From positions 496,001 through 560,000 of the forward strand of contig NZ_JAPEOR010000002.1 in NCBI RefSeq assembly GCF_026341125.1: 64,000 bases of DNA. The letters are read 5' to 3'. The translations under genes and the position numbers were made by a program. The notes beneath the pieces were generated by a model that was not told the DNA's origin, ran no database searches, and saw only the letters and a program-made list of their open reading frames with translations. The DNA is from Streptomyces sp. NBC_01142. GTDB lineage: Bacteria; Actinomycetota; Actinomycetes; Streptomycetales; Streptomycetaceae. Shown here piece after piece: positions 1 to 13,948 of the stretch (position 1 is its first letter; each line of letters begins with the position of its first letter).

Positions 1-253
1 TGTCGTCGACCACGTTCACCACGAGAGCCTTGGTCTCGGTGTCGTAGTACGCACCGGCCTCGTCGGCACCCAGGTCCGCGCTCAGCGTGGAGGCAAGATT
101 TCCGGCCGCCACCACCGACAGCGGCTTGACGGTGAACTGCTCAGTGTTGTCACTGGCGTTCGCACTCTGGAAGGTGACGCCCGCGGCGATCAGCGCGACG
201 ATCGCGCCGCCTGCCATCGCCGCTTTCCTCTTGGGCATGCGTCGGTGCTTCAA
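1..253 (-). CDS. sprD: Streptogrisin D-like S1 protease precursor (5' part only)
   Basis: Only the first 84 or so residues lie in the window; the protease domain is beyond the left edge. The N-terminus is a secretion signal: a basic stretch (KHRRMPKRK), a hydrophobic run (AGGAIVALIAAG) and a small-residue end (SANA). The next part (LSADLGADEAGAYYD, then LVVNVVDD) matches what I remember of the streptogrisin D propeptide, which chaperones folding and is later cut off. A TTG start at 253 is preferred over the ATG at 256, because AGGAGG sits 6 nt before the TTG but only 3 nt before the ATG, and KHRR then follows the initiator as in the family. The catalytic triad cannot be checked here. A complete paralogue, sprB, lies 12 kb away. 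Confidence 0.8.
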   Translation of the reverse strand, partial: MKHRRMPKRKAAMAGGAIVALIAAGVTFQSANASDNTEQFTVKPLSVVAAGNLASTLSADLGADEAGAYYDTETKALVVNVVDD

Positions 254-647
254 CATCGACCTCCTGTGGGGGCCGCGGCCGGACAAGTGGGGTGCCCGGA
301 CACGGAGGATGGGGCGCCCACTATTCCGATACCGATCGGTAGCACACAAGGCCGACTTCAGGACGCGCACACGACAACGCGAGGGCGTTCACAGCGCCTT
401 CACAGGAACTGTCGCCACTGGTCGGTTTCGATTGCGAACACCGCGTGCATCGCCGCATGGGCGCTGCGTGAGGACTAGACCTGTCCTGTTTTCGACTCTG
501 CGTATATCCGCGCCTCTTCGACGGTAGTTCCCAAATGACGTCAAAGGGAGTCCCGCAAAGGGCCCCTGATGGGTCATCATCGAAGGGGTGGGGAAATGCC
601 TGGCTCACCACGGCTTCATAGGGCACGCACAACGAAGGGGGCGCCGG
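254..647. other. Intergenic region between sprD-like gene and hydrolase
   Basis: No convincing gene is seen. It should hold the promoters of the two divergent genes. Visible elements are a perfect 12-bp palindrome TACCGATCGGTA at 330-341, which could be an operator for the protease gene, and TGACGTCA at 536-543. No clear -35/-10 pair was found. Confidence 0.5.
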
Positions 648-1514
648 GTGCGACGTCGGATGCGCGCGACGGACGGGCGGCATCTGATGGTGGAGCGTCT
701 GGGGGATCCGCACGGCAGACCGGTCTTTCTGCTGCACGGCACACCGGGCAGCCGGCTGGGCCCGGCACCGCGCGGCATGGTGCTGTACCAGCGCGGTACG
801 CAACTGATCGCGTACGACCGCCCCGGCTACGGCGGTTCGGACCGGCTGGCGGGACGCAGCGTCGCCGATGTGGCCCAGGACGTACGGGCGATCGCCGACG
901 AGCTGGACCTGGAGCAGTTCGCCGTGGTGGGCCGCTCGGGCGGCGCGCCGCACGCCCTGGCCTGCGCAGCCCTGATGCCCGAGCGGGTCACCCGGGCCGC
1001 GGCGCTGGTGACACTCGCCCCCAGGGACGCGGACGGGCTCGACTGGTTCGAGGGCATGGCCGCCTCCAACGTGACGGAGTTCACCAGGGCCTCGCTCGAC
1101 CCGGTCGGCCTGGCGGAGCGGTTCATCGTCCGCTCCGCCGAGATCAGGAAGGATCCGATCCGCCTTCTCGACGATCTGCGCAGGGAGCTGACCGACTCCG
1201 ACCGGATGGTCGTCGCGGACGCGGGCGTCAGGTCCATGCTCCTGCGCAACTATCAGGAGGCGCTGCGCACTTCGGCGTACGGCTGGATCGACGATGCGCT
1301 CGCCTTCTGCAGCCCCTGGGGCTTCGACCCCGCCGACATCAAGAACCCGGTCATGCTGTGGCACGGGGAGAAGGACGTCTTCTCACCCGTGGGCCACTCC
1401 CGCTGGCTCGCGGAGCGCATCCCGGGCGCGACGGCCGTCCTCGAACCGGCTGCCGCGCACTTCGACGCCCTGCACGCGCTTCCCCGGATCCTCACATGGC
1501 TCCTGGACCACTAG
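648..1514 (+). CDS. Alpha/beta hydrolase
   Basis: A 288-residue cytosolic alpha/beta-hydrolase-fold protein. Visible motifs are the HGTPGS oxyanion loop (around residue 30), the nucleophile elbow GRSGG with Ser97, an acid region near HGEKDVFSP, and a late His in AAAHFDAL that would complete the triad. The substrate cannot be told from sequence; members include esterases, haloperoxidase-like enzymes and lactonases. GTG 648 is chosen because AAGGGGG lies about 6 nt upstream. The frame is open further upstream (ATG 588), but that part is Arg/His-rich and lacks a ribosome site. It stands alone, divergent from the protease gene and convergent with fxsT. Confidence 0.85.
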   Translation: MRRRMRATDGRHLMVERLGDPHGRPVFLLHGTPGSRLGPAPRGMVLYQRGTQLIAYDRPGYGGSDRLAGRSVADVAQDVRAIADELDLEQFAVVGRSGGAPHALACAALMPERVTRAAALVTLAPRDADGLDWFEGMAASNVTEFTRASLDPVGLAERFIVRSAEIRKDPIRLLDDLRRELTDSDRMVVADAGVRSMLLRNYQEALRTSAYGWIDDALAFCSPWGFDPADIKNPVMLWHGEKDVFSPVGHSRWLAERIPGATAVLEPAAAHFDALHALPRILTWLLDH

Positions 1515-1547
1515 AGAGTGTTTGATCTTGCCGCCGGCACAGCCCTC

Positions 1548-1585
1548 AACGGCCGGACGGGCTGATGTCGGCCCGTCCGGCCGTT
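1548..1585. terminator. Bidirectional hairpin terminator
   Basis: A perfect 15-bp inverted repeat (AACGGCCGGACGGGC and its complement) with an 8-nt loop lies between the convergent hydrolase and fxsT stops, so it can end both transcripts. Confidence 0.75.
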
Positions 1586-1594
1586 GCGGACAGT

Positions 1595-4500
1595 TCAGAC
1601 CGCCAGCGGCTCCAGATCGCGGTGCACCCTGCGCTCGTCGCGCGCGAGCCGGGTCAGCGCATGCTCGTCGCCCAGCAGCCGCTGCAGCTCATCCACGGTC
1701 TCCGCCCGCAGCTGCGCCGCCTCGTCCTTGCGGCCCAGCATGCCGAGCGTGACGGCCACGTTGGAGGCGACACCGAGCACCTCGGGATGGTGCGCGCCCA
1801 GCACCTCGCGCAGCCGGGCCACGGTCCGCTGCTCGATCGCCAGCGCCTCCTCGAGACCGCCCAGATCCGCGAGCGCATTGGCCAGATTGATGGTGCTGAA
1901 GAGCGCGTGCGGGTGACTCTCCCCCAGGACCTCCCGCATGGTCCTGGTCACCCTCAGCAACAGCTGCTCCGCCGCCTCCGGAGCGCCGCAGCCCCACTGG
2001 AAGATGCCGAGGTTGTTGATGGCGGCCAGGGTGTACGGGTGCCGGTCCCCCGGCACCTTCGTGTACTGGTCGACGACCTCCTGCGCCAGATCGCGCGCCG
2101 CCACCGGCTCACCGGCCGCGAACAGGTCGGCCGCCAGGTTCAGGTCGCAGGCCAGCGAGTCCGGGTTGGCCGAGGTGTACTTGGCGCGGTAGCGGTTGCG
2201 GGTGGCTGTGGTGAGCCGCCGCGCGTCCTCCAGGCGGCCTGCTCTGCGCAGCGAGACGGCAAGGCTCTTGGCCGCGGCGAGCGTGCCCGGGAAGGCCCGG
2301 CCGAGCTGCTCCTTGTACAGGTCGTAGGTACGGCTGAGCATGGAGACCGAGTCCTCGTACCGGCCGACCTCCCGCAGGTCCCGCGCCAGATTCATGGCCG
2401 AGGAGAGGGTGTACGGATGGTCCGGGCCGAGCACCTCGGTCCGCCGGTCGAAGACCTCCTGGTCGATCTCGCGCGCCTTGGCGTACTGGCCGACCATGCG
2501 CAGGTTCAGCGCCAGGTTGTTGGCTGCCGCGAGCGTACGCGGATGGGACTCGTGGAAGATCTGGCTGAATCCCTCGTGCGCCTGTGTCGCCAGTTCCATG
2601 GCCCTGCCGTAATCGCCGAGGGTGCCGAGGTCCATCGCCAGACCGCTGGTGGTCATGTACGTATGCGGATGGGACGTCCCCAGCACCTCCTGCTGACGCT
2701 CCAGGGTCACCTCGTCCAGCTCCTTGGCCTCCACATAACGGCCCTGCGAGCGAAGGATGTTGGAGAGGTGGAAGCGGAGGTAGAGGTACTGCAGATCGTC
2801 GTTGCCGAGCTTCTCCTTCCAGATCTCGCGCAGTTCGCCGCCGAGCGCCGAGGCCGCGTTCCAGTCACCGCGCTTCCACAGATAGCGCACCCGGTCGATC
2901 ATCAGCCGGCGTGTCTCCGGCTCCTTGCAGAACCGGGCCTCCGAGGGGCCGAGGTGCGGCCAGATGGTGGCGAACCGCGGCCATGTCTCCGGGTTGTCGA
3001 TCGGCTCGTCGTCGTCGGGCCGCGCACCGGCGAGGACCCGGTGGACGGCGTGCCGCGCGTCCCGCTGCTCCTGCTCGGACAGCTGGGCGCGGATCACGGC
3101 CTGCACCAGCCGGTGCACCTGGATGCTGTTGGAGACCTGATCGACCTTGGCCAGCGCGAACCGGCCGATCTCCCGGATGACCCGGCCGAGCACCAGCTTC
3201 TCCTGGAGCGAGGAGTCGTACGGCTTGAGCGCGTCGATCATCTCCTTGCTGTAGAGGAGGTTCGCGGAGATCGGCTCGGGCGCGAAGAAGGCGCAGAGCT
3301 GGAGGAGGCGCACCGCGGCGGGCGATCGCTCCTTGAGCCGCTCGATGGAGACGTTCCAGGTCGCGGCGACCGGCTCGGGATACCCGGCGGGCTGGTTGAG
3401 CGCCAGGACGCTCGCCGCCTGCTCCCTGAGCTGCTCCAGATACTCGGCGACCGGGGTCGCCGTCTCCGCGATCCAGGCCGCGGCCTGTTCGACGGCGAGC
3501 GGCAGGTCGCCGACGGCCGTGGCGACCTGGTCGGCGTCCTGGATGCTCAGCCCTCGGGCACGCCGCTGAAGGTGCTCGATGGACTCCTCGCGCAGAAACA
3601 CATCGACGGGCAGCGCATCTCCGTACTGCGACCACGACTGGTTTCTGGAGGTGACCAGGATGTGTCCGGGTCCCTGCGGCGGGAAGAAGCGCTTGAGCTG
3701 CTCGGGGTCGTCGGCGTTGTCGAAGACGAGCAGCCAGCGCGTGGACGGCACCCCGCGCCGCAGCAGGTCGATGGCCTCCTGCGAGGCGGCCGCCATGTCC
3801 TCGCCGCCCTGGGCGCCCAACCGGACGGCGAGTTCGGCGAGCCCGGCCACCACATCGTCGGGCTGCTCGGCCGAGATCCACCAGACCAGGTCGTAGTCGG
3901 CCATGAAGCGGTGGACGTACTCCAGCGCCACCTGCGTCTTTCCGACGCCGCCGAGTCCGTACAGGGTCTGTGGCTGGGGCAGCACCGCGGCCACGGCCAT
4001 CCCACCGCCGAGCTGGTCGCGCATCCGCTCCAGCACCACCGAGCGCCCGGTGAAGCCGGGGTTGCGGGGCGGTGCGTTCCAGATCTTCGGCACGGTGCCG
4101 GGGAAGCGCGGTCCCGGCGACGACCCGTCGGGGAGCTGGACCGGCCGGTCCAGCGCGCGCAGCAGCGAGGTGGTGGCGTGGACCTCGTCGAGCCGGAAGA
4201 GATCCACCGGGTTGCGGTCGATGTACGGGGTGGTGAGCCGGACGTCGCCCACTCTGATCGGCAGCAGATGCCGCCGACCGCCGCCGGGGTCCTCGGCCGC
4301 GGCCCGCGCCCAGACCTCCACCGCCCTGGCGGACTTGAGATAGGCGCTGGAGAGCAGCACGACCGTACGGGCGGCGTTCTCTGCCGCGGCCGCGTCCGCG
4401 TCGACCGCGTCCGGTTCGGCGGAGACATCGCGCGGCACGACCCGGAAGCCGGCCCGGGTGAGCACACTCTCGACCCAGTCGGCCCACATGCGGTTCTCGG

Positions 4501-5536
4501 CCACATAGCTGAGGAAAAGGTCGGCGGGCAGGGCGGGGCGGCGGCGGGTGAAGGCGTCCCTGATCCGGAGCCTGGCCTCCTCGCCGACCTGCGGCATCGC
4601 GGTGATCTGCTGGTCGGTGACGACGGAGGTGAGCCGTTCGAAGGCGGAGAGCAGGGAGTTGGTCAGCCCGGCGTCGTCGCCGAAGGTGGCGAGCGTCTCC
4701 TCGTAGGCGTAGTAGGGCCGGTACGGAATCTCCACCGCGCCCCAGTAGGCGGTGAGCTCCTCGCCGGACAGGCCGGTGGGGAAACGGTCGAACTTCAGCC
4801 GGGCCAGGGCGCGTCCGGCGTCCGCCTTCTCCTTCTCCCCCTCGTCGATCCGCATCGGCACCGGGAAGATCTTGATACCGCGGCCGCCGTACCGCTCGTC
4901 GATCTGCCGGGCGACCGCGGCGGCGCCGTCGATGGACTGGTCGCTGAGGGTGAAGCAGTCGACGAGGATGTCGGGCAGATGGACGGTGCAGATGTCGGCG
5001 ATGTCGCTCAGGCCGGTGCGGCTGTCGATGAGGACGTAGTCGTAGTTGGCCTTCATGTCGTCGCGCAGGGCGTCGAAGAAGTGTCCGCCGCCGAGCCGGT
5101 CGTAGAAGTTGTCCCAGTCGAAGGTGGAGACCGTCGCCGAGTACTCGCGGTTCTGTTTGCCCGCGGAGACGAAGTCGAGCGTGCCGCCCTCGGGGAACTC
5201 CCAGCCCAGTGCCTCCGGGGTGAGGGAGACAGCGTGCGGCTGGATACGTGCGTAGTCGATGTGCCAGTCGTCGCGGCGGGGTTCGGGGCTGGTCGCGGCC
5301 CAGGCGTACTCGGTGATCAGATCGATCACTCCGGTGGTGGCGCCGAGCGTGGAGGGATCCAGGAACGGGTGGAAGAAGCGGTGCAGGCCGGGCGCTTCCA
5401 GGTCCCAGTCGACCGCCAGGACCCGCCTTCCGTTCGCGGCGAGAATCCAGGCCGTGTTGGCCAGGGCCATCGTGCGGCCCGTACCTCCCTTGTACGAGTA
5501 GAAGGTGACGATGCGCCCGTCACGACTGGCTGTCAT
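1595..5536 (-). CDS. fxsT: FxSxx-COOH system NB-ARC/tetratricopeptide repeat protein FxsT
   Basis: A 1313-residue multidomain STAND-type protein, the last gene of the fxs cluster. In order it shows an N-terminal ParA/MinD-like ATPase with a deviant Walker motif (YSYKGGTGRT, near residue 15) and DWDLEAPG; a TIR-like domain near residue 337 (ADLFLSY, then WADWVESVL and VVPRDVS); an NB-ARC NTPase with P-loop GLGGVGKT near residue 525 followed by WWISAEQ and LLVFDNADD; and C-terminal tetratricopeptide repeats from about residue 910 to 1295 with the recurring HPHT/HPYTL signature. The family accompanies FxsB, but its function is unknown to me; the architecture is NLR-like, implying sensing plus oligomerisation. 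ATG 5536 overlaps the fxsC stop by 17 nt, implying coupling. The TIR helix SAYLKSARAVEVW does not place a Glu at the usual catalytic position. Confidence 0.88.
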   Translation of the reverse strand: MTASRDGRIVTFYSYKGGTGRTMALANTAWILAANGRRVLAVDWDLEAPGLHRFFHPFLDPSTLGATTGVIDLITEYAWAATSPEPRRDDWHIDYARIQPHAVSLTPEALGWEFPEGGTLDFVSAGKQNREYSATVSTFDWDNFYDRLGGGHFFDALRDDMKANYDYVLIDSRTGLSDIADICTVHLPDILVDCFTLSDQSIDGAAAVARQIDERYGGRGIKIFPVPMRIDEGEKEKADAGRALARLKFDRFPTGLSGEELTAYWGAVEIPYRPYYAYEETLATFGDDAGLTNSLLSAFERLTSVVTDQQITAMPQVGEEARLRIRDAFTRRRPALPADLFLSYVAENRMWADWVESVLTRAGFRVVPRDVSAEPDAVDADAAAAENAARTVVLLSSAYLKSARAVEVWARAAAEDPGGGRRHLLPIRVGDVRLTTPYIDRNPVDLFRLDEVHATTSLLRALDRPVQLPDGSSPGPRFPGTVPKIWNAPPRNPGFTGRSVVLERMRDQLGGGMAVAAVLPQPQTLYGLGGVGKTQVALEYVHRFMADYDLVWWISAEQPDDVVAGLAELAVRLGAQGGEDMAAASQEAIDLLRRGVPSTRWLLVFDNADDPEQLKRFFPPQGPGHILVTSRNQSWSQYGDALPVDVFLREESIEHLQRRARGLSIQDADQVATAVGDLPLAVEQAAAWIAETATPVAEYLEQLREQAASVLALNQPAGYPEPVAATWNVSIERLKERSPAAVRLLQLCAFFAPEPISANLLYSKEMIDALKPYDSSLQEKLVLGRVIREIGRFALAKVDQVSNSIQVHRLVQAVIRAQLSEQEQRDARHAVHRVLAGARPDDDEPIDNPETWPRFATIWPHLGPSEARFCKEPETRRLMIDRVRYLWKRGDWNAASALGGELREIWKEKLGNDDLQYLYLRFHLSNILRSQGRYVEAKELDEVTLERQQEVLGTSHPHTYMTTSGLAMDLGTLGDYGRAMELATQAHEGFSQIFHESHPRTLAAANNLALNLRMVGQYAKAREIDQEVFDRRTEVLGPDHPYTLSSAMNLARDLREVGRYEDSVSMLSRTYDLYKEQLGRAFPGTLAAAKSLAVSLRRAGRLEDARRLTTATRNRYRAKYTSANPDSLACDLNLAADLFAAGEPVAARDLAQEVVDQYTKVPGDRHPYTLAAINNLGIFQWGCGAPEAAEQLLLRVTRTMREVLGESHPHALFSTINLANALADLGGLEEALAIEQRTVARLREVLGAHHPEVLGVASNVAVTLGMLGRKDEAAQLRAETVDELQRLLGDEHALTRLARDERRVHRDLEPLAV

Positions 5537-6857
5537 CCGTGTCCTCCGCATCGGGGGCGATGTCACGCATGTTCGGGACGTAGTGCGTGGTGCCGTACTC
5601 CGCCGCCATCGGGCCGCGGAGCCGGGGCCGTTCGATCGGGGCCGCTCCGGGCCGCGCCGCCGGCGGGAAGACCTCGGCGTGGCGCAGATACTCCTGGGCT
5701 GCCGACTCCACCACCTGGGGCAGGATCTGGCCGAAAGCCTCCATGCTGAGCACGCCCTTGGCGGCTGCCCGGCAGGCGGCGCGTCCCTGGCGCATCTGGT
5801 GCGGCATTGTTCGTTCCAGCTTCTCCACCAGCTCGGCCTCCGATATCCGGCTCTGGGGGTCGTCACGGTTCCAGGGGACGACGACGCTCACCCAGGGGCG
5901 CGGCTCCGCGTCGAAGGCCGCGAGTCTCTCGCGCCGCTCCTCGTCCTCAAGGGCCCAGCGGTCGACGAGAAGTATCTCGGGCCGGGTGGGCGGCTGACTG
6001 ATGTCGGGCGGTGTCTCGTGGTCGAAGGAGGAGACTGTCGCCTGGTAGTTGAGGGAGCGCACCAGATCCTGGGCGACGTACGCCAACGGCCGTGCGGAGT
6101 CCGGATGGTACGGATTCCAGTCCTGCGACTGCTTGCCGTAGTAGTCGGCGGCCCGGCCGTCGGGAAGGTCGTGGCTGGTGGGCGCGGCGACGGTGACATG
6201 CATCGGGCGGGGGCCGCCGGTGGGCTTGCCGAAGGCACTGGGCGCCTGTCGGTAGTCGACGGGGCTGCCGGAGCCCACGCGCGTCGTGTCCGCCACGCTG
6301 ACAATGCGTTTGGCCAGTTCATAGACGGCTGCCTCGTACTCCTCGGCGAATATTCGGAGTTTGATCAGTCCGTAGAGACCGTCGGTCACATACCGGTCCC
6401 CGAAGGCACGGTGGTTGAACTGCAACCGCTCTGCGGGTCCGGGGAGTTGCTCCGGCGGCATCGGCACCCACAGTGCGGGCACGATCGCCTCCGCCGGCTT
6501 GTTGCTCTTCGCCTGGTGGTAAATGGCCCGCTGGGCGAAGGCGTACCACTCCTTGCCGCACATCTCGCTGGCGAAGTACCTCGGCGAGAAGAGCGGAACG
6601 AACACCCGGCAGGTGGAGAGCACTTCGCCCAGCCGCTCCGACCAGCCCTCCCCCGAACGGATCTCCCGGTCCATGAACCCGGCAGGAGCGCCGGCCGGCA
6701 GATCGGTCATGGCCATCACATGACCGCACAGATCACGGAAGAGCCGCTCGACCCACATATCGGGGTCCGGTCCCCCTGCCCCGTACCGCGGTGTGTGCGC
6801 ATAACTCAAGAAGAAGTACGGCCGATGGTCCGCCGCTCGCTGCGATGAATCTGACAC
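5520..6857 (-). CDS. fxsC: TIR-like protein FxsC
   Basis: A 445-residue protein of the FxSxx-COOH peptide system. The N-terminal part (residues about 12-150) is a TIR fold: PYFFLSYAHTP at 13-23, MDREIRSG at 62-69, and SPRYFASEMCGKEW at 91-104. The Glu103 position matches the catalytic Glu of TIR NADases (pattern S-x-x-F-x-x-S-x-x-C-x-x-E), so NAD cleavage is possible but not shown. The C-terminal half carries the FxsC-specific region (DWNPYHPDS, PPDISQPPTRPEILLVDRW). GTG 6857 is chosen: GGGGG lies just upstream and the TIR strand begins soon after, whereas the open frame before it has no ribosome site. It is followed by fxsT with overlap and preceded by a 112-nt gap that includes an AT-rich patch, possibly a second promoter. 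Confidence 0.87.
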   Translation of the reverse strand: MSDSSQRAADHRPYFFLSYAHTPRYGAGGPDPDMWVERLFRDLCGHVMAMTDLPAGAPAGFMDREIRSGEGWSERLGEVLSTCRVFVPLFSPRYFASEMCGKEWYAFAQRAIYHQAKSNKPAEAIVPALWVPMPPEQLPGPAERLQFNHRAFGDRYVTDGLYGLIKLRIFAEEYEAAVYELAKRIVSVADTTRVGSGSPVDYRQAPSAFGKPTGGPRPMHVTVAAPTSHDLPDGRAADYYGKQSQDWNPYHPDSARPLAYVAQDLVRSLNYQATVSSFDHETPPDISQPPTRPEILLVDRWALEDEERRERLAAFDAEPRPWVSVVVPWNRDDPQSRISEAELVEKLERTMPHQMRQGRAACRAAAKGVLSMEAFGQILPQVVESAAQEYLRHAEVFPPAARPGAAPIERPRLRGPMAAEYGTTHYVPNMRDIAPDAEDTDDSQS

Positions 6858-6969
6858 ACGACCCCCGTCCTGTGTGAACGCCCGCCCCCGCACTCACGAG
6901 CGAGGAAGGCTGCGAGCTAATTAATCATTCCGGAGCAGGACACTCTCCATCCCCCCGACGTTCAGTCAA

Positions 6970-7746
6970 TCAACACCGCTTTTCGGTCATCCAGCTCTGT
7001 GCATGGTCGACCGCGTCCTTGATCGAGAACAATCTTGCGGGCCTTCCTCCCAGTTGTCCCTTCTGCTCCGTCCCCCAGGGGAAGGTGGCGCCGATCGCGT
7101 CGAAATCGCTGTCGTCCAGTTCGACATCGGTGTACTCGGCCCATTCCTTGCCGCCGCCAGGTCGCTGCACCACACAACGATAGGTGCGCCGGGGCGATCC
7201 GGTCCGGTATTCGGCGAGATGGAATGCCGTACACACGGCGAAATCGACATCGATCATCAAAACCTGCGCCCCGGCCCGGTACAGAGCCCCGAGCGGCGAA
7301 TGCTCACCGAGATGGGATTCCAGTGGATGATCTGCGAGCAGTTCCGCGGCACGCCGTCCCAGCCCGGCGAACGAGGACTGCGGATGGGCGCTGCGTACGG
7401 CTCCTTCGGCGGTCCGTACGGACTCGGCCAACCGGCCCATCCCCTGGCTGCGTGAGGTCGCGGCGTCAAAGGCCGGCATCTCCGCCCGGAAGGCCGCCGC
7501 CTGCTCGGGTGTCATCCCCCGCACCCGTGCCAGATACGAGTGGGAGGTGTCGGAGTTCTCCATGGTGAAGGCGGGCACCACCAGGGTGCCGTCCTTGCCC
7601 AGGACCTCGGTCAGCGCGTCGCGCAGGGTGTCCGCGTCCAGTCCGGTGAAACGCAGTGAGGCATGGACGAGGAGCGTCATGCCCTCCTGCAGGCCCAGGC
7701 TCCTCAGTGCACGCACCGGCCGGTTCGTGCGCCCGGACTCAGCCAC
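6970..7746 (-). CDS. AAC(3)-family N-acetyltransferase
   Basis: A 258-residue member of the aminoglycoside 3-N-acetyltransferase fold. Visible signatures include GMTLLVHASLRF near residue 20, KDGTLVVPAFT near 50, and MIDVDFAVCTAFHLAEYRTG near 167, which corresponds to the family region with the conserved substrate-site residues. The GTG start overlaps the fxsB stop by 8 nt, so it is translated from the same message as the peptide-modifying enzyme. I recall AAC(3)-like genes sitting between fxsB and fxsC in other Streptomyces. In this setting acetylation of the peptide product, or of a lysine/amine on a partner, is as likely as antibiotic resistance. Family assignment is firm, substrate unknown. 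Confidence 0.85.
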   Translation of the reverse strand: MAESGRTNRPVRALRSLGLQEGMTLLVHASLRFTGLDADTLRDALTEVLGKDGTLVVPAFTMENSDTSHSYLARVRGMTPEQAAAFRAEMPAFDAATSRSQGMGRLAESVRTAEGAVRSAHPQSSFAGLGRRAAELLADHPLESHLGEHSPLGALYRAGAQVLMIDVDFAVCTAFHLAEYRTGSPRRTYRCVVQRPGGGKEWAEYTDVELDDSDFDAIGATFPWGTEQKGQLGGRPARLFSIKDAVDHAQSWMTEKRC

Positions 7747-10027
7747 GGCCGGCCTGTTCGCGGAGGTCGGCGACCAGACGCCTGCCGCTGACAGTCAGTT
7801 CAGCGGTGCGTTCCAGCGTCCGCAGCGCCTGTCCTGCCTGCTCCTGCTCCACACCTCCGGCTGCGGGCCCCAAGGCGGCCAGGCCCACGCGCTCGTACGC
7901 CCCGGCCAGCAGCTCGGACACCGGAACCGGCTCGTGCTGCCAGGGCGCCGGGTGGCGCCACCAGCCGTCCTGTGCATAGAGATCCGCGACCTGGGACAGG
8001 GCCTGGAGTGTGGCCTGCCGAAAGCCCCGCAGCAGTGCGGTCGCCACATCCGCGGGCGTGCCGCGCAGCGCGAGGCCGAGCGCTCCATAGGCGTGCCGGC
8101 CCACGGACGGCTCGCCAGGGGGCTCTGCGGAGGCCAGCGGCGTCAGGGTGGTGAGCGACCCGGCGAGCTCGGCGGCCTGCTCCGGTACGCCCGCGCGCAG
8201 CAGGGCCCACGCCTCGGTCAGCAGCGTGGCCCGGGCGGCTTCATCGCTCTGGCCGCGCTCTTGTACGGCCCCCTCGAAGCAGTCCCGGTACGGATCGATG
8301 TCGTCGATCACCAGGCCCGGCCAGCCGTCCAGAGCGAGCCGCTGCACGGGCCGCCAGGCGCGAGTGGCTTCGACACGGGTGGCATCGGCGCCTGTGGCTT
8401 CGGCACAAGTGGCTTCGGTGTGGGCGGCTTCGTTGAGGCGTACGGTCCACGGCTCGTGGCCGCGCACACGTACCTGGAAGGCCTTCTCGCTGCCGCGCAC
8501 CTCGGCCTCGCAGTACGCCCCCACGCCGTCCAGACGCAGCTCTCCGAGGGTCGGCAGCCGGAGCCTGCCGTCGTGGCAGTCCACCAGCACGGGGAGGTCG
8601 AGCCCGCCCCGTACGGCCGCTGCGGCGACGTACGACGACAGCCGGCGGGCGAGCTGCGGTGCCTCCGGCCGCCCCTCGCGCAGGGCGTCCAGACAGGTGT
8701 GCAGCCAGGTGCGGGTGTAGGGGTGGGCGCAGATCTCGTCGAGCCCGTCCGACGTCCGTTCGACAGCTGACGCCAGCTCCCAGGCCGTCTGCCATGCCGC
8801 GCCGCCGCGGCCGTCCAGTTCCTGGTGGAGGTCGGCGAGCATGGTGCGGGTCAGATCCTGTTGCAGGAAGAGCAGCGCTCCGGGGTCGGTCACGGCCGGG
8901 GAGACCATCGCGGCGGCCGTGCGCTGCTCGATGCCCAGGATCAGCGCCTCGAGGTCCGTGCAGTACACGGAGGTGTTGTCGAAGTCGTTCGCGGAGCGGT
9001 AGCGGTGGGTGTAGAGCCCGCCGCCGCAGGACCGTACGACCGGGCACTGCCGGCAGGTCTCGCTCACTCCGGCGAGCCCCAGTTGGCGCGCCCTGACGCC
9101 GGGGTGGGCGGCCACCTCGTCGAAGGAGTGGGCAAAAACATCGAATCCGGTGGCGGCCGCGCCTTCGTAGGCGCTCTTGAGCGAGTCGACCTGTTCGAGG
9201 GTGCCGTCGGTTTCGACGACGACGAGGTCGGTGGGCGCAAGGCCGAGGGATTCGGTGAGGCTGGGGCCGCCGCCGAGGGTGGAGAGCACGGATTCGAAGA
9301 GCCGCACCGGTACGTTGCGGCCCTGCGCCTCCCAGCGGTCGAAGATCGCGAGGATCCAGTCGGCGTAGGCGGTCGGCGATCCGTCCGGCCGGGCCGGCGG
9401 GTCGTCCCAGGTGGCGTGCGGCAGCAGAAAGTCGATGCGCGGGGGGTCCAGCTCGGTCAGCGCGTCGTACACGGCGATCGGGTCGTTGGCCACGTCGATC
9501 GTGCAGAGGAGCCCGAGGTAGAGATGGCGGTACTGCTCCTGCCGGAGCAGGTCGACGGCCTTGAGGACCAGGGGGTGACTGGTGCGGCCGTCCGCGAAGC
9601 GGCGGTGCCGGTCGTTCGCGCCGCGGTCCCCGTCGAGGGAGATGCCGACCTTGACGTCGTACTCGCCGAAGAGGTCGAGATAGCGGGGGCTGAGCTGCAG
9701 GCCGTTGGTATGGATCCGCAGATCGAGATCGGCGACCGAGTCGAGGGCTCCGGTCAGCTCCTCGCAGATGCGTCGCAGTCGTGCGGGTCCGGCGAGCAGA
9801 GGCTCCCCTCCGTGCAGGATCACTGACACGGAGGGCAGGGCATGGCTCTTGGCATGCTCGGCCAGTCGCAGAGCTGTCCAGGAAATCGCTTCGTCAGAGA
9901 TTGCCTTCGGGCGGGTACGCCAGCTCTGATCAGCGTGTTCGTAGATATAGCAGTGGTCACAAGCAAGATCACACCTGCTGTGGACCTTCAATACGATCTC
10001 GCGGAAAGGGACCAGGGGTCCAGTCAT
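7739..10027 (-). CDS. fxsB: FxsB-type radical SAM/SPASM peptide-modifying enzyme
   Basis: A 762-residue enzyme that installs the carbon-carbon cross-link (three-residue cyclophane) on FxsA-type precursors, per known family members. The radical SAM cluster motif is C19-x3-C23-x2-C26 (CDLACDHC), followed by YEHADQSW and the GGEPL strand. A SPASM Cys cluster (CRQC ... SCGGG ... VYC, about residues 324-358) binds auxiliary Fe-S. The C-terminal half (about 400-762) is the family's inactivated-metallohydrolase extension; I see no HExxH in it. A linker made of five 15-bp repeats interrupts it. ATG 10027 lies 9 nt after the fxsA stop. The first 60 or so codons use clearly more A/T-ending codons than the rest of the gene, which may indicate recent acquisition or a folding-free start. 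Confidence 0.93.
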   Translation of the reverse strand: MTGPLVPFREIVLKVHSRCDLACDHCYIYEHADQSWRTRPKAISDEAISWTALRLAEHAKSHALPSVSVILHGGEPLLAGPARLRRICEELTGALDSVADLDLRIHTNGLQLSPRYLDLFGEYDVKVGISLDGDRGANDRHRRFADGRTSHPLVLKAVDLLRQEQYRHLYLGLLCTIDVANDPIAVYDALTELDPPRIDFLLPHATWDDPPARPDGSPTAYADWILAIFDRWEAQGRNVPVRLFESVLSTLGGGPSLTESLGLAPTDLVVVETDGTLEQVDSLKSAYEGAAATGFDVFAHSFDEVAAHPGVRARQLGLAGVSETCRQCPVVRSCGGGLYTHRYRSANDFDNTSVYCTDLEALILGIEQRTAAAMVSPAVTDPGALLFLQQDLTRTMLADLHQELDGRGGAAWQTAWELASAVERTSDGLDEICAHPYTRTWLHTCLDALREGRPEAPQLARRLSSYVAAAAVRGGLDLPVLVDCHDGRLRLPTLGELRLDGVGAYCEAEVRGSEKAFQVRVRGHEPWTVRLNEAAHTEATCAEATGADATRVEATRAWRPVQRLALDGWPGLVIDDIDPYRDCFEGAVQERGQSDEAARATLLTEAWALLRAGVPEQAAELAGSLTTLTPLASAEPPGEPSVGRHAYGALGLALRGTPADVATALLRGFRQATLQALSQVADLYAQDGWWRHPAPWQHEPVPVSELLAGAYERVGLAALGPAAGGVEQEQAGQALRTLERTAELTVSGRRLVADLREQAGRG
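8361..8435. repeat. Five tandem 15-bp repeats inside fxsB
   Basis: Five imperfect copies of a 15-bp unit (consensus on + strand c-x-a-g-TGGCTTCGGCA) run head to tail from 8361, 8376, 8391, 8406 and 8421. On the coding strand they give an EAT-x-x pentapeptide series (TEATCAEATGADATRVEAT) between two parts of the FxsB C-terminal extension. The number of units is expected to vary between strains by slippage. Confidence 0.9.
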
Positions 10028-10036
10028 TCCACCAGT

Positions 10037-10201
10037 CTAGAGCGCCGAGTTGAAGGTGGAAGCACGCACAGTCCGGTCCGCAGAAGCGGGGAGCACTCGG
10101 GCCAGCTTTTTGGCGGCTTCTGCACCACGCACATCGATCTGTGCCAGCGGGACGCGATTCTTCTTCGCAGCGGCGAAGGAGGCGGAGGTCTGAATCGTCA
10201 T
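10037..10201 (-). CDS. fxsA: FxSxx-COOH peptide precursor FxsA
   Basis: A 54-residue open frame with ATG at 10201 (AAGGA 9 nt upstream) and TAG at 10037-10039. Its last five residues are F-N-S-A-L, exactly the F-x-S-x-x-COOH pattern that defines this RiPP precursor family. The leader region begins MTIQTSASFAAAKKNRVPLA and continues QIDVRGAEAAKKLARVLP; the core is at the extreme C-terminus (VRASTFNSAL). The three-residue cyclophane is expected to join the Phe ring to the Ser of FNS. It lies 9 nt upstream of fxsB and is the first gene of the operon. It is below the usual length cut-off of gene callers, so it may be missing in automated annotations. The family match is by pattern and context, both specific. 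Confidence 0.93.
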   Translation of the reverse strand: MTIQTSASFAAAKKNRVPLAQIDVRGAEAAKKLARVLPASADRTVRASTFNSAL

Positions 10202-10267
10202 GAGGGGCCGTCCTTGATGTTGTGTCCAGCGCAGCTGCCATGCACCGTTGCGGTGCCCGGCGGCACG

Positions 10268-10295
10268 ACTTTACTCTCATGGCCACCCGCAGCAA
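10268..10295 (-). promoter_or_regulatory. Candidate fxs operon promoter
   Basis: On the minus strand TTGCTG (10290-10295), a 16-nt spacer and TAAAGT (10268-10273) resemble a housekeeping-sigma promoter. Transcription would begin near 10261 and leave a leader of about 60 nt containing the small dyad CACCG-CAA-CGGTG before fxsA. This is inferred from sequence only. Confidence 0.35.
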
Positions 10296-10404
10296 CTCAG
10301 CACATGGACATGGAACAAAAGAGTTTCGCGGCATTCTCGCAGGACAGTACGGAACAAGCCATTCCGCCTAAAGAGTGAAGACAAAAGCGCAGACGGGGGC
10401 GCGC

Positions 10405-11337
10405 ATGTCCAGGAATCCCGGTCCACTGCAGAGCATGGTCTTCCGCAACACTGATCTGCCCGTCCTCTTTCACCGCACGGACACCATCGCCATCGCGCGC
10501 CAGCGCGAAGCCATCGGCGCCACCCGCTCCCAGCTGCTGCTCCTGGTCCTGGGCGCGGCGCTCGCGGCGCTGCCGTCCTCGCTCAGGCTCGGCAGCACGT
10601 TCCAACTCGCCGGCGCACTGAGCGCGTTGGCGTACGCCGGGGTGCTGGTGCTGAGCTACCGCTCGTCCCGGCACAGAGCAAAGTCGCACTGGCAACTCAA
10701 CCGTTCCGCAGCGGAGTTCATCAAATCGATGTGCTGGCGGTACGCCGTCCACGGAGCGCCCTTCGACTCCCGTTGCACCGATCCGGACGGGCTGTTCACC
10801 ACGCGCCTGGAGGAAGGGCTGCGGGAGCTGGCGAAGGTCGGCTGGCAGGACCCGCGGACAAACGACCAGGAGGCGGCCGCCGGTGACCTGCTCACCACTC
10901 CCATGCGGCGGCTGCGCGCCAAGCCGTTCAGTATCCGCAAGGAGACCTACGTCAGGGACCGGCTGATCGAGCAGCGCAACTGGTACCACCGGCGCACGGA
11001 GATCTCCCGTCGCGCCACCACACTCTGGTCCTTCTCGATCGGGCTGCTCACCCTGCTGGCGCTGCTCCTCGCGATGCTGCGGACCTTCTCGGTCGCCGAA
11101 TCCGTCGATATGGCGGGCCTGCTGTCGGCTGCCGCGGCGGCCTGTCTGGCGTGGAGCGAGATCCGGCGCCATCAACCGCTCATCGCAGCACACTCCTTGG
11201 TGGAGGAGGATCTGGCGGCCATGCATACGGCGATGGAGACCACGATCACCGATGTGGAGTGGCCGTCGGCGGTCTACGAGACGGAGCGCATCGTGTCACC
11301 TCAGCACACCGACTGGCTTGTCAGACACCGGAGTTGA
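10405..11337 (+). CDS. DUF4231/SLATT-type membrane protein
   Basis: A 310-residue protein with two pairs of transmembrane helices: about residues 43-90 (LLLLVLGAALAALP, then LAGALSALAYAGVLVLSY) and about 205-252 (FSIGLLTLLALLLAML, then AGLLSAAAAACLAW). Between and after them are charged helical regions (AKSHWQLNRSAAEFIKSMCW, SIRKETYVRDRLIEQRNWY). This matches DUF4231, a SLATT-superfamily member; SLATT proteins are predicted membrane effectors controlled by nucleotide-type signals. ATG 10405 is chosen because GGGGG lies 6 nt upstream; the frame is open to GTG 10375. It converges on a SLOG-like gene, the typical partner fold, and is divergent from fxsA. The effector role is inference from family and context. 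Confidence 0.8.
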   Translation: MSRNPGPLQSMVFRNTDLPVLFHRTDTIAIARQREAIGATRSQLLLLVLGAALAALPSSLRLGSTFQLAGALSALAYAGVLVLSYRSSRHRAKSHWQLNRSAAEFIKSMCWRYAVHGAPFDSRCTDPDGLFTTRLEEGLRELAKVGWQDPRTNDQEAAAGDLLTTPMRRLRAKPFSIRKETYVRDRLIEQRNWYHRRTEISRRATTLWSFSIGLLTLLALLLAMLRTFSVAESVDMAGLLSAAAAACLAWSEIRRHQPLIAAHSLVEEDLAAMHTAMETTITDVEWPSAVYETERIVSPQHTDWLVRHRS

Positions 11338-11339
11338 GA

Positions 11340-11402
11340 GAATGTCAGGTCAGCCTCGCTGAACGTCAGGTCAGCCTCGCTGAATGTCAGGTCAGCCCCG
11401 CT
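11340..11402. repeat. Three tandem 21-bp repeats
   Basis: Units at 11340-11360, 11361-11381 and 11382-11402 are 21 bp each and differ at one position each (GAATGTCAGGTCAGCCTCGCT type). The third copy covers the stop codon and last codons of the SLOG-like gene, so the array looks like a triplication of that gene's 3' end. It fills the whole gap between the two convergent genes. Confidence 0.95.
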
Positions 11403-11871
11403 CGAGGCCCTCGCGCCAGATGACCGTCACGGGCTTGCCGCGCTCGCGTGCGTAGCGGACGATGTCGCCCGTGCCGCCGAGGCCGCGGGCGGGGCGGCCG
11501 TCCCAGACGGCCAGGAGGCGGTCGCAATGGTCGGCGATGTAGGCGCCCGCCGCGTAGTAGGCCTCATCGGTGGAGTACGGGAAGCCCAGTTTGACCTCCC
11601 GGCTGGCCCGGCCCCTGAGGTCCTGGTAGCGGGCAAGTTCGCCGGGGGCGGTGAAGCCCCGTTCGTAGTCGCCGCTGGGGATGACCACGGTCAGCTCCGC
11701 CCCGCAGGCCAGCGCGATGTCCGCGAAGAGCTGGTCGGCGCCGACCGCCAGGCTGCTCAGGGCCTCCATCGCGCCCTGGTAGCCGCTGAGCGCTGCGCGC
11801 ATTCCGGCACGGATATGGGCATAGCCCTCGGGAGGGATGCCTCGGTGGCCGGTCACTCCAATGCGATTCAC
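11392..11871 (-). CDS. SLOG-like nucleotide-binding Rossmann protein
   Basis: A 159-residue single-domain protein. The N-terminal strand and loop IGVTGHRGIPP, the mid segment SLAVGADQLFADIALACG, the strand LTVVIP, and the C-terminal DRLLAVWDGRPARGLGGTGDIV are typical of SLOG/DprA-like Rossmannoid sensors that bind or make nucleotide-derived ligands. It converges on the SLATT-type membrane gene, with the 21-bp repeats between them; SLOG and SLATT proteins are a recognised predicted pair in nucleotide-signal conflict systems. The start is the ATG at 11871; the upstream region is GC-rich with a GGGGG ribosome-like site (GGACGGGGGTTGCGGGTC). The specific ligand is unknown. Confidence 0.75.
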   Translation of the reverse strand: MNRIGVTGHRGIPPEGYAHIRAGMRAALSGYQGAMEALSSLAVGADQLFADIALACGAELTVVIPSGDYERGFTAPGELARYQDLRGRASREVKLGFPYSTDEAYYAAGAYIADHCDRLLAVWDGRPARGLGGTGDIVRYARERGKPVTVIWREGLERG

Positions 11872-11937
11872 TGACCCGCAACCCCCGTCCGTCCAGTGCC
11901 CGACCGCTCCCCCAATCCTCTCAAAAGCGGGCGCGAC

Positions 11938-11974
11938 GTCGAGCCCCCGTCCGTTGCGGGGACGAGGGCTCGAC
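11938..11974 (-). terminator. Hairpin terminator after sprB
   Basis: GTCGAGCCC-CGTCC pairs with its complement at 11960-11974 with one mismatch, forming a long GC-rich stem 26 nt beyond the sprB stop. Confidence 0.65.
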
Positions 11975-11999
11975 TGCTGCCGGTTGCGCTGGTGGTACG

Positions 12000-12899
12000 T
12001 CAGTAGACGCTGACTCCATAGGCGCTGAGGGCCTCGGTCACCGGCTGGAAGAACGTCGTGCCGCCGGAGGAGCAGTTGCCGCTGCCGCCGGAGGTCAGGC
12101 CGATGGCCCGGCTGCCGGAGTAGAGCGGGCCTCCGCTGTCGCCCGGTTCGGCGCAGACGTTGGTGCGGATCATGCCGTAGACGACATCACCGCCGCCGTA
12201 GTTGACCGTGGCGTTCAGTCCGGTGACCCGGCCGCTGTGGGTGCCCGTGGTGGAGCCGCGGCGGGTGACGGACATGTTCACCGTGGCGTTGGCCGCGCTG
12301 GTGATGTCGACGCTGCCGACGGTGCCCGGGTGGGCGAGCGAGGTGTTGTCGTACCTCACGATGCCGTAGTCGTTGCCCGGGAAGCTGGATCCGACCGTGG
12401 GGCCGATGCTCGTGGTACGCGAGGAGTTGGTGTACCAGGGCGGGTTGCCGTCGGTGCAGTGGCCGGCGGTCAGGAAGTAGTAGGTGCTGCCGCTGCGGAC
12501 GTTGAAGCCCGCGGAGCAGCGCCAGCTGGTGGCGTAGACGGCGTCGCCGCCGGAGATGAGCTTGGAGAAGGTGCCGGGGGTGCGCTCGATGCGCAGCGCG
12601 CCGGCGTTGGATCCGGCCTCTTGCCTGATCTTGGCTATCTCGGCCTGGGAGACGGTGCTGTCGGCCGTGACGACCAGGGTGCTGGTCGCTCTGTCGATGT
12701 GCCAGGCGGTGCCTGCCACATTCGCGTCGAGTACGGCGTCACTCGCGGCGGTGAGCTGGTTGGCGCTGAAGGTCTGTGATGAATCGGCGCTGGCGGCGGG
12801 GACGGCCAGCGCTGCGGCGGCGAGCAGACCGGTGGTGACGGCGAGCAGACGCGTGCGTCTCGCCGCGCCACTGCGGGGGATGGTGCGCTTGATCCTCAC
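12000..12899 (-). CDS. sprB: Streptogrisin B precursor (secreted S1 serine protease)
   Basis: A 299-residue pre-pro-protease of the chymotrypsin/alpha-lytic type, the same length I recall for the S. griseus SGPB precursor. Residues 1-38 are an export signal (basic [14 protein letters not shown], hydrophobic [20 protein letters not shown]). Residues 39-114 are the propeptide, and the mature enzyme starts at ISGGDAVY (Ile115). The triad is complete: His147 in TAGHC, Asp177 in GNDYG, Ser255 in GDSGGP. Cys pairs at 128/148 and 249/276 fit the two disulfides. The C-terminus [16 protein letters not shown] is near-identical to SGPB from memory. GTG 12899 has GGAGG 8 nt upstream. It acts outside the cell in protein digestion. 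It stands alone, with its own 244-nt upstream region. Confidence 0.95.
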
Positions 12900-13143
12900 T
12901 TGTCGTTCCTCCCGAGGGGAATCGGGGGCCCGCTGTGGGGTTCCGGGCCCGTGAGGCGCAGCCAGTGAGCACCTTCGCTTTTCGGACAGGCGGTACTCCT
13001 GACAAGCGCTGTTCGGGAGTATTCGGGGCGTCAACTTCCGGCGCAAGGGCGCCTTTCGGCCGCGCAGCGCAGGCCACACGTGCGGCCCCGGCTGCTCGGT
13101 GGCCGCCGGGGCTGCGCTGCGTGTGTCCGGCCAGTGGGACGGG

Positions 13144-13944
13144 TCAGCGGCCCAGGAGGTTCCGCTCCCCCGCGGGGACGCCGGCCACGAGGGTGTTCCC
13201 GGGCGGCGGGAACGGGCAGATGAAGTGGTCCGCGAAGGCGCACGGCGGCAGCAGGGACCGGTTGAAATCGACGGTCACCGAGTTGTCGGCGGCCGGTGCG
13301 CAGGGCCGCAGAAAACGGAAGCGGTAGCTGGTGTCTCCGCTGGTGGCGTCCGCGAAGACCGCCCAGAGCGAGCCGTCGGGCTCGACCGCGACATGCAGCG
13401 TGCACTCCTCACCGTCGAGCGCGAAGACGATCTCACCGCCGAGGCCGAGCCCGCGCTCCCGTCCGTCGGCGTTCTCCACCCGTACGCTGCGGTGCTCGTA
13501 CGGACGGAAGCGGCCGGGCAGCACCCATCGGGCGTCGTACGCCGTCACGTCGATGCCTCTGAACGCCTGCCGCGCGGGTGAGGCCGGGTCGAAGTCGCGT
13601 ACCGCCCACAGCCCCTCGCGGCGCAGGAGCACCAGACGCCGCTCGCCGTGCGCGACCCGGGATTCGGAGATCGGGCCATGGTCGGCGGTGAGACGGATCC
13701 GGCCGGTGAGGGGCTTGCCGTCGACGGACAGACGGTCGTCGGCCGAGGCGGTCAGCACCACCTCGCCGCCGTCCTCGGTCCATGTCCCGGGGACGGCCGG
13801 AACTCGACCTTCCGGGTAGTCGGCGAGCCAGTGGGTGCCGGTGAGCGACAGCGGGCCGTACGGCGCCGAGACGGTGGCGGTGCGCTGTTCGTGCCACGTC
13901 TGCCAGTTCCGCCGGCCCGGGGCCGTCTGTGCGTCCGAGCTCAT
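13144..13944 (-). CDS. DUF1684 domain protein
   Basis: A 266-residue cytosolic protein of the DUF1684 family. Typical segments are [18 protein letters not shown] at the start, [19 protein letters not shown] near the middle, and the C-terminal [27 protein letters not shown], whose Asn-Arg ... Pro-Cys-Ala-Phe run is the family hallmark. No enzymatic activity is known to me. It is the last gene of the eight-gene uptake/monooxygenase operon, 4 nt after the upstream flavin oxidoreductase stop, so it probably helps process or sense the same compound. Confidence 0.85.
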
Positions 13945-13948
13945 GCGG

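Follow-up and report, generated by a model that had tools for sequence, protein, structure and literature searches.

The window analysed here is a 64,000-nt stretch of Streptomyces sp. NBC_01142, C2:496001-560000 of the 10.1-Mb genome (contig NZ_JAPEOR010000002.1). It contains a chromosomal fxs cassette, centred on a short peptide precursor (FxsA), a radical S-adenosylmethionine (SAM) maturase (FxsB) and two TIR-containing proteins, FxsC and FxsT. An earlier annotation made from the letters alone, called here the sequence-only reading, had described a complete cluster of five genes. Comparison with related loci indicates that the unit is larger: genes for a SLATT protein and a SLOG-fold protein are inherited with fxs, and a convergent alpha/beta-hydrolase gene belongs to the unit or accompanies it.

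The five genes first named are all present on the - strand, as a check of their open reading frame (ORF) coordinates confirmed. fxsA (10037-10201) encodes a 54-aa precursor with the C-terminus F-N-S-A-L-COOH. The FNSAL codons lie at 10040-10054, and F50-N51-S52 is the predicted cyclophane site. fxsB (7739-10027) encodes a radical SAM/SPASM maturase domain (residues 8-367) followed by a degenerate aKG-HExxH-hydroxylase-like C-terminal domain (residues 375-757). An accessory AAC(3)/FrbF-like N-acyltransferase gene (6970-7746) precedes fxsC (5520-6893), whose product has a TIR domain and a C-terminal domain. fxsT (1595-5536) encodes a KGGxGR ParA-like domain, a degenerate TIR domain, an NB-ARC domain and TPRs. 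The tight spacing claimed for these genes was observed: 9 nt separate fxsA from fxsB, and fxsB overlaps the acyltransferase gene by 8 nt. The start of fxsT has to be moved. In the ORF from 5866 that was first proposed, the initial ~110 residues are the fxsC gene in another reading frame. Because FxsT homologues begin shortly before a 'GRIVTFYSYKGG' block, their N-termini place the start at ATG 5536. The protein then has 1313 aa and its gene overlaps fxsC by 17 nt. fxsC could also begin at a GTG codon at 6857.

The SLATT gene (10375-11337, + strand) is divergent from fxsA. Its product, a predicted membrane effector, matches PF18184 (SLATT_3) and PF18181 (SLATT_1) with 128.9 and 128.7 bits (both cut-offs 26.3), and also NF033610 and NF033634. 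The next gene (11392-11871, - strand) encodes a 159-aa protein with no Pfam or NCBIfam match. Its AlphaFold2 model has a predicted local distance difference test (pLDDT) score of 92.9. A Foldseek search with this model gave YpsA as top hit (2nx2; E 3.9e-8, prob 1.00, template modelling scores 0.78/0.70), followed by DprA, ShosA and LOG. Judged from the model, the protein has a SLOG fold and is a predicted nucleotide sensor.

Co-inheritance was surveyed in 150 genomes of the genus, of which 56 carry FxsC (54 above cut-off). We set the orthologue thresholds at score gaps: at least 250 bits for SLATT, in a wide gap (257.7 to 124.8), and at least 142 bits for SLOG, in a narrow one (142.0 to 120.6). 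The two orthologue sets are identical and comprise the same 42 genomes, all FxsC-positive. The Fisher p value for this association, 1.9e-25, is uncorrected for phylogeny and comes from a genus that is one lineage. The distance between SLATT and FxsC is 3.9-5.7 kb in 39 of the 42; the two are on different contigs in G610 and G714 and 468 kb apart in G638. Weaker SLATT relatives occur in five further genomes, one of them FxsC-positive, and counting distant SLOG relatives brings the SLOG tally to 84 genomes. A deeper sample consisted of 53 named loci fetched by FxsB, 48 of them with long flanks. These 48 contain FxsC in 44 cases, the FxsT ParA domain in 45, SLATT in 31 and SLOG in 30, the last count reflecting a 9.5-kb limit, at the edge of which the SLOG gene of L030 sits. 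The fxs operon of L030 is flipped with respect to the adjacent genes, and its SLATT gene comes after fxsT. Three loci (L028, L029 and L032) have fxsB without FxsC or FxsT. One of them, L028, retains fxsA, fxsB, the AAC(3)-like gene, SLATT and SLOG, and is perhaps a loss intermediate.

Sites without the cassette were also compared. On the fxsT side of the window lies the alpha/beta-hydrolase gene (588-1514, + strand), convergent with fxsT; beyond SLOG lies the gene of an alpha-lytic-type protease (12000-13079, - strand; PF00089, PF02983), a flank outside the unit. The 13 stretches fetched included all nine hydrolase-positive, FxsC-negative sites. At eight of these, the protease adjoins the hydrolase and fxsB is missing; at the ninth (G636), fxsB follows the hydrolase. 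One of the eight, L089 (genome G588, 3139-3475), carries a scar. SLOG up to codon ~70 is joined directly to the last ~42 codons of fxsT, the SLOG start is in two frames around codon 13, and everything between the two ends is gone. This junction indicates that the scar is a single deletion of the whole cassette.

The intergenic region between fxsA and SLATT contains an element of ~60 bp (10241-10299, - strand; core GAGAGTAAAGTCG at 10278) that is near-invariant in 29 aligned sequences. Length limits excluded five of 33 loci from this alignment (L013, L018, L019, L024 and L026); their fxsA-side cores were found separately. Of the 35 named loci whose divergent SLATT scores at least 200 bits, 34 (all but L036) have the core, with at most two mismatches, ahead of fxsA; the 18 remaining named loci lack it. 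Where an insert separates the two genes, a decayed SLATT-side copy is found in L019 (16/20 vs background 11) and L024 (15/20 vs 12). It is doubtful in L026 (13 vs background 12) and not found in L018 (12 vs 13). The orphan SLATT gene of L099 keeps a copy (15 vs background 12). Support from the SLATT-side copies is mixed. We read the element as a shared operator or promoter of fxsA and SLATT, a role suggested by its conservation and position. Two other candidates were rejected. A GTG(N)6GNCAC site in the same intergenic region, which we take to resemble the Streptomyces Crp motif, occurs in five of 29 sequences vs ~1 expected from mononucleotide shuffles and does not constitute the conserved part. 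An RNA leader structure is not indicated, the folding z-score being -0.63 and Rfam giving no match in window positions 1-14000. A scan for sigma-70 promoters and terminators gave 0 promoters and 1 terminator-like site vs 2.5 expected, and is uninformative in this GC-rich DNA.

Hidden Markov model (HMM) searches upheld the assignment of the four Fxs proteins, each of which exceeds its NCBIfam cut-off. FxsA scores 38.7 bits with TIGR04268 (cut-off 28) and FxsB 585.9 bits with TIGR04269 (cut-off 370). The FxsC N-terminus scores 234.3 bits with NF040588 (cut-off 130) and its C-terminus 225.1 bits with TIGR04276 (cut-off 55). FxsT reaches 1061 bits with NF040586 (cut-off 300) and 147.9 bits with NF047398, the model of the KGGxGR ParA variant. 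Its Pfam domains are NB-ARC, TIR_2 and TPR_10/12, and the P-loop, LPLA and HR blocks of NB-ARC are mostly conserved in 47 sequences. Across its ParA domain, FxsT also matches the PADLOC phage-defence candidate PDC-M28B (80.4 bits).

The two TIR domains differ in their putative active site. In FxsC (PF13676 TIR_2, 36.0 bits, cut-off 28), Glu115 (codon 6549-6551, - strand) is identical in 50 of 50 sequences, and the FFLSYA and GFxD motifs are conserved too. In weak profile matches to solved TIRs, this residue falls opposite the glutamates of 'WPQKE' (3h16, E 0.042) and 'WCLME' (flax TIR 7vu8, E 0.3). We take a glutamate at the equivalent position to be catalytic in TIR NADases, and Glu115 is the putative catalytic residue of FxsC. 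At the nearest position of the FxsT TIR, 17 sequences have E, 11 have D and 14 another residue (n=42). Because the catalytic-glutamate position is not kept, the FxsT TIR is probably a docking domain. Outside the clade of the window, some loci encode an additional TIR protein whose type is that of the FxsC N-terminus (L100 4230-5365, L041 12225-12947). In Streptacidiphilus carbonis (L035 734-9218), a second FxsC-FxsT-like pair and two extra alpha/beta-hydrolase genes lie upstream of the fxsB operon.

The close Streptomyces loci were compared with the window by best local alignment. The median identities are 92.9% for the FxsC TIR, 92.4% for the FxsT ParA domain, 90.3% for NB-ARC, 85.5% for the FxsB radical SAM domain, 84.1% for the FxsT TIR, 83.7% for the hydrolase and 80.6% for the TPRs. 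Lower values are found for SLOG (74.8%), the flanking protease (74.3%), the FxsC C-terminus (74.0%), SLATT (71.9%), the AAC(3)-like enzyme (69.3%) and the FxsB C-terminus (48.3%). Thus, the receptor and TIR parts are strongly constrained, whereas the dead hydroxylase domain of FxsB drifts. SLATT and SLOG are no more conserved than the protease.

FxsA ends in FNSAL and so has the F-x-S-x-x-COOH form of the family, which NCBIfam names a cyclophane-containing RiPP (ribosomally synthesised and post-translationally modified peptide). No signal peptide is recognisable by eye. Of 83 loci, 82 have at least one ORF that ends in FxSxx no more than 250 nt ahead of fxsB. The sole locus without one is L034 (9550-10020); in L039 two ORFs match, and the nearer one, which was counted, is probably not the real precursor. 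Among 34 close Streptomyces loci, the last five residues are FNSAL in 25 and FxSxL in all 34. The nearest named relatives of FxsB are from Streptomyces. Its CxxxCxxC motif (CDLACDHC in the window) is kept in 81 of 82 relatives.

The C-terminal domain of FxsB, a relative of aKG-HExxH hydroxylases that was missing from the sequence-only reading, has lost its HExxH motif. It scores 400.7 bits with NF040587, the model of the lost form, which NCBIfam keeps separate as FxsBH. The domain is apparently the zincin-like peptidase of Kaur et al. 2020. HE[FV]xH is absent throughout the clade of the window. Of 80 loci, 24 keep the motif, and no strong SLATT occurs among these; the other 56 lack it, and 47 of them have SLATT. 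The SLATT labels come from loci of unequal length, and with the ~1.5 kb flanks of L054-L083 a part of the 'no SLATT' labels do not reflect true absence. L035, with an intact motif, has a weak SLATT 9 kb away. On an FxsB tree built by a quick method, with long branches flagged, loss of HExxH and gain of SLATT fall on one clade, and the independent-pairs test is without power.

The acyltransferase, called AAC(3)-like in the sequence-only reading, matches PF02522 (236.5 bits). It is not supported as an AAC(3) aminoglycoside-resistance enzyme, being under all listed AAC(3) NCBIfam cut-offs, with a best score of 139.5 bits vs 270, and its closest PDB entry is FrbF (3sma, E 1e-41). Its HLAEY motif is conserved at ≥95% in 29 sequences, and the gene is found in 25 of the 48 long-flank loci. 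The hydrolase exceeds the Pfam cut-offs of Abhydrolase_1 (PF00561, 70.7 bits vs 25.8) and of the S33 serine aminopeptidases. With this second match, and with a protease gene close by, although in the flank, the former statement that the cluster contains no protease is unsafe. The hydrolase is present in 45 of the 53 named loci, beyond the fxsT end in 42. It is missing from L041, L042, L044 and L028 and from the truncated L004, L005, L020 and L053; 8 of the 11 Micromonosporaceae loci have it (not L041, L042 and L044). In the genus survey it occurs in 57 genomes, 48 of them FxsC-positive (Fisher 1.3e-21). The protease is a flank, independent of fxs, because it is present in 147 of the 150 genomes (E <= 1e-60) with or without the cassette. 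FxsC-negative genomes, G690, G612 and G665 among them, have orthologues with 78-84% identity.

These enzymes invite comparison with a natural-product cluster, from which the peptide would be secreted as an antibiotic or signal while the TIR, STAND and SLATT proteins would serve to regulate the producing strain or to protect it. The FxsB family chemistry, the acyltransferase, the hydrolase, the nearby protease and the NCBIfam name of FxsA fit such a cluster, as do ABC-transporter genes at 16-22 kb and a major facilitator superfamily (MFS) gene at 26.8-28.6 kb. However, no exporter was found among the genes co-inherited with fxs, the ABC and MFS genes farther out lying outside the co-inheritance test. 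FxsA lacks a recognisable signal peptide, its core barely varies, the protease is independent of fxs, and just about half of the loci have the acyltransferase. We consider a secreted product improbable.

FxsC is also found on plasmids. Five plasmid records match it. In three annotated plasmids (two mobilizable and circular, the third linear, with identities of 67, 67 and 37%), the FxsC module is C-terminal in proteins of 1337-1566 residues, encoded at L102 8605-13179, L103 8479-13179 (annotation only) and L104 9181-13194. HMM scans of L102 and L104 identified an N-terminal SAV_2336-N domain and an adjoining AAA ATPase gene. L102 also has FxsT-like TPRs (NF040586, 381.5 bits) and a VMAP-M2 protein. 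The remaining matches are a partial one in S. chartreusis (50%) and one in Rhizobium (27%). Because the module forms the C-terminal part of proteins of the VMAP-ternary type, these domain matches link FxsC with ternary conflict systems in a way that does not depend on the peptide genes.

The sequence-only reading had suggested that the cluster serves sensing or conflict and makes no exported antibiotic. The proposal is compatible with the context data, although the unit on which it was based was too small. With no exporter among the co-travelling genes, reuse of FxsC on plasmids, co-inheritance of SLATT and SLOG and a near-invariant peptide core, such a role fits the evidence and appears favoured over an exported antibiotic. 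For this cassette we tentatively propose, with confidence a little short of even, a peptide-linked STAND-TIR pathway that runs in the cytosol and has a Thoeris-like output through TIR, SLOG and SLATT. FxsB would cross-link Phe to Ser as a cyclophane within the C-terminal F-N-S of FxsA, by analogy with family chemistry and MscB; PMC11002830 describes C4(Phe)-Cbeta(Ser) links made by MscB. The modified C-terminus would be kept in the cell and control how active FxsT is, which with its NB-ARC domain and TPRs would be a switch. The FxsT TIR, in a protein with the KGGxGR P-loop variant, would dock FxsC. FxsC, with its conserved glutamate and flanking motifs, would act on NAD+, and the ADP-ribose-type product may be read by the YpsA-like SLOG protein. 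The signal would open the SLATT membrane protein and arrest growth of the affected cell. The AAC(3)/FrbF-like enzyme and the hydrolase might conceivably modify or trim the peptide or the signal molecule. The conserved element would place fxsA and SLATT under common control.

A more specific version is quite unlikely to hold in full. It is a RiPP-gated immune relay, in which a self-made cytosolic cyclophane would serve an NLR-like ParA-TIR-NB-ARC-TPR receptor as its ligand or as a safety catch. A dead TIR would dock a live one, and an NAD-derived product would pass through a standalone SLOG to a SLATT pore. If true, Thoeris-like chemistry would be controlled by a post-translationally modified peptide. 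More generally, the addition of a SLOG sensor, a SLATT effector and a shared element in a large clade of Streptomyces, together with the live/dead TIR split, suggests an ordered, testable pathway for the cassette, which would link RiPP chemistry with NAD-based immunity in bacteria.

Several results weigh against the proposed pathway. The FxsC TIR model is poor, with ten-residue pLDDT means of 29-76 over residues 1-220, and the SLOG orthologue threshold sits in a narrow gap. The association of HExxH loss with SLATT gain, judged from the tree, is effectively one event. Viral contigs gave no confirmed FxsC relative, and PADLOC gave no match for FxsC, SLATT or SLOG. A scan of 10 genes at 13-30 kb showed metabolic, transport or housekeeping functions and no defence island. 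Of the 56 FxsC-positive genomes, 14 lack the SLATT and SLOG orthologues; their FxsC scores are all <=173 bits, and two are below cut-off. Neither gene was found in the 11 Micromonosporaceae fxs loci fetched. The fxs system can therefore run without the pair. Conversely, L099 (G638, 5378-6797) has an orphan SLOG-SLATT pair, with no fxsB within the 14 kb fetched. This orphan pair adjoins another protease.

The orphan pair and the Micromonosporaceae loci without one would be expected if SLATT and SLOG were hitch-hikers, a separate module in the slot between protease and hydrolase with no functional link to fxs. The block can be removed by one deletion, and co-occurrence within a single lineage is non-independent. 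However, the pair accompanies FxsC in 42 of 42 genomes whereas the next gene outward is independent of fxs. The linkage persists despite the operon inversion in L030, and the near-invariant element is common to fxsA and SLATT. We therefore regard mere hitch-hiking as distinctly unlikely. The pair-less genomes bear on another possibility, that FxsC is itself an NAD+-depleting effector, as the VMAP fusions may be, with SLOG and SLATT as a parallel arm or safety valve. FxsC as a C-terminal fusion module points in the same direction. The strict co-inheritance of SLATT and SLOG in the clade of the window argues against it, and a direct effector role seems possible rather than probable.

The trigger of the proposed pathway need not be a phage. 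The same molecular chain could respond to an internal cue such as development or stress and decide the fate of the cell, the near-invariant peptide acting as a licence or a quorum-like ligand. TPR peptide receptors provide a comparison for the latter. High median identities of the FxsC TIR and of the ParA, NB-ARC and TPR parts of FxsT give no sign of sensor diversification. The invariant FxSxL core, the ordinary flanks and the unconfirmed status of FxsC in viral contigs agree with this. Patchy presence (56 of 150 genomes) with whole-cassette loss is, however, more typical of conflict systems, and FxsC is reused in the VMAP-ternary-type plasmid systems, two of them mobilizable. Signalling of this kind is a possibility that we take seriously without expecting it. 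Close relatives show strong conservation of the TIR of FxsC and of two FxsT domains, ParA and NB-ARC, so that physiological or developmental signalling is as open as anti-phage defence.

Part of this system is already known. The coupling of radical SAM, TIR and STAND proteins, presented as unusual in the sequence-only reading, had been described by Kaur et al. 2020 (eLife, PMC7159879). That article describes FxSxx systems with radical SAM enzymes and a standalone AP-ATPase form with an inactive MinD/ParA-like domain; it predicts the standalone systems to be conflict modules whose peptide is a toxin or signal. The FxSxx core, the radical SAM enzyme and the AP-ATPase/TPR coupling are thus not new. 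Within the literature searched, the co-inheritance of SLATT and SLOG is new, as are the element that fxsA and SLATT share, the division of the TIR domains into live and dead, and the evidence from the scar and the empty sites. A SLATT/SLOG link to FxSxx could already be in print, as no search pairing SLATT with FxSxx was made.

The window resembles the standalone FxSxx systems of PMC7159879 in its precursor, radical SAM/SPASM enzyme, AP-ATPase (NB-ARC) with TPRs and MinD/ParA-like domain. It differs by the co-inherited SLATT and SLOG and by the lost HExxH motif. Section 24 of that article, in its text, does not mention SLATT, SLOG, AAC(3) or an alpha/beta-hydrolase, and the SLATT statements in the main-text portions concern GAP1 systems. 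With triceptide biosynthesis the window shares a radical SAM/SPASM maturase. Unlike there, the precursor lies in an immune-type operon, and the analysis identified neither a dedicated transporter nor a leader protease. Phan and Morinaka (2022) reportedly dealt with actinobacterial triceptide maturases, to go by their title. VMAP (vWA-MoxR) ternary systems have the FxsC module as a C-terminal domain, and TPRs in L102. In contrast, the window has no VMAP, vWA or MoxR among the ORFs scanned at 0.6-30 kb, a part of all window ORFs.

The closest parallels to the proposed output are TIR-based systems. According to passages of PMC9503650, YpsA-like SLOGs include sensors of cyclic ADP-ribose, and SLATT is a predicted ADP-ribose-regulated membrane effector. 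The same passages list TIR-SLATT and TIR-SLOG pairs, and ThsB-SLOG signalling in Thoeris. The firmicute phage TIR-SLATT modules described there likewise have a TIR adjoining SLATT, sometimes with a helix-turn-helix protein or a metallopeptidase; as presented in those passages, they are without a peptide maturase, a STAND protein or SLOG. With Thoeris (PMC9503650, in the same passages), the window shares the logic of a TIR enzyme, here putatively FxsC with its TIR_2 domain and Glu115, acting with a SLOG sensor. The two differ in architecture. ThsA has SLOG fused to its effector, whereas the SLOG of the window is a standalone protein, and no sirtuin was found among the genes scanned. The would-be effector of the window is SLATT, with a STAND protein and a modified peptide upstream.

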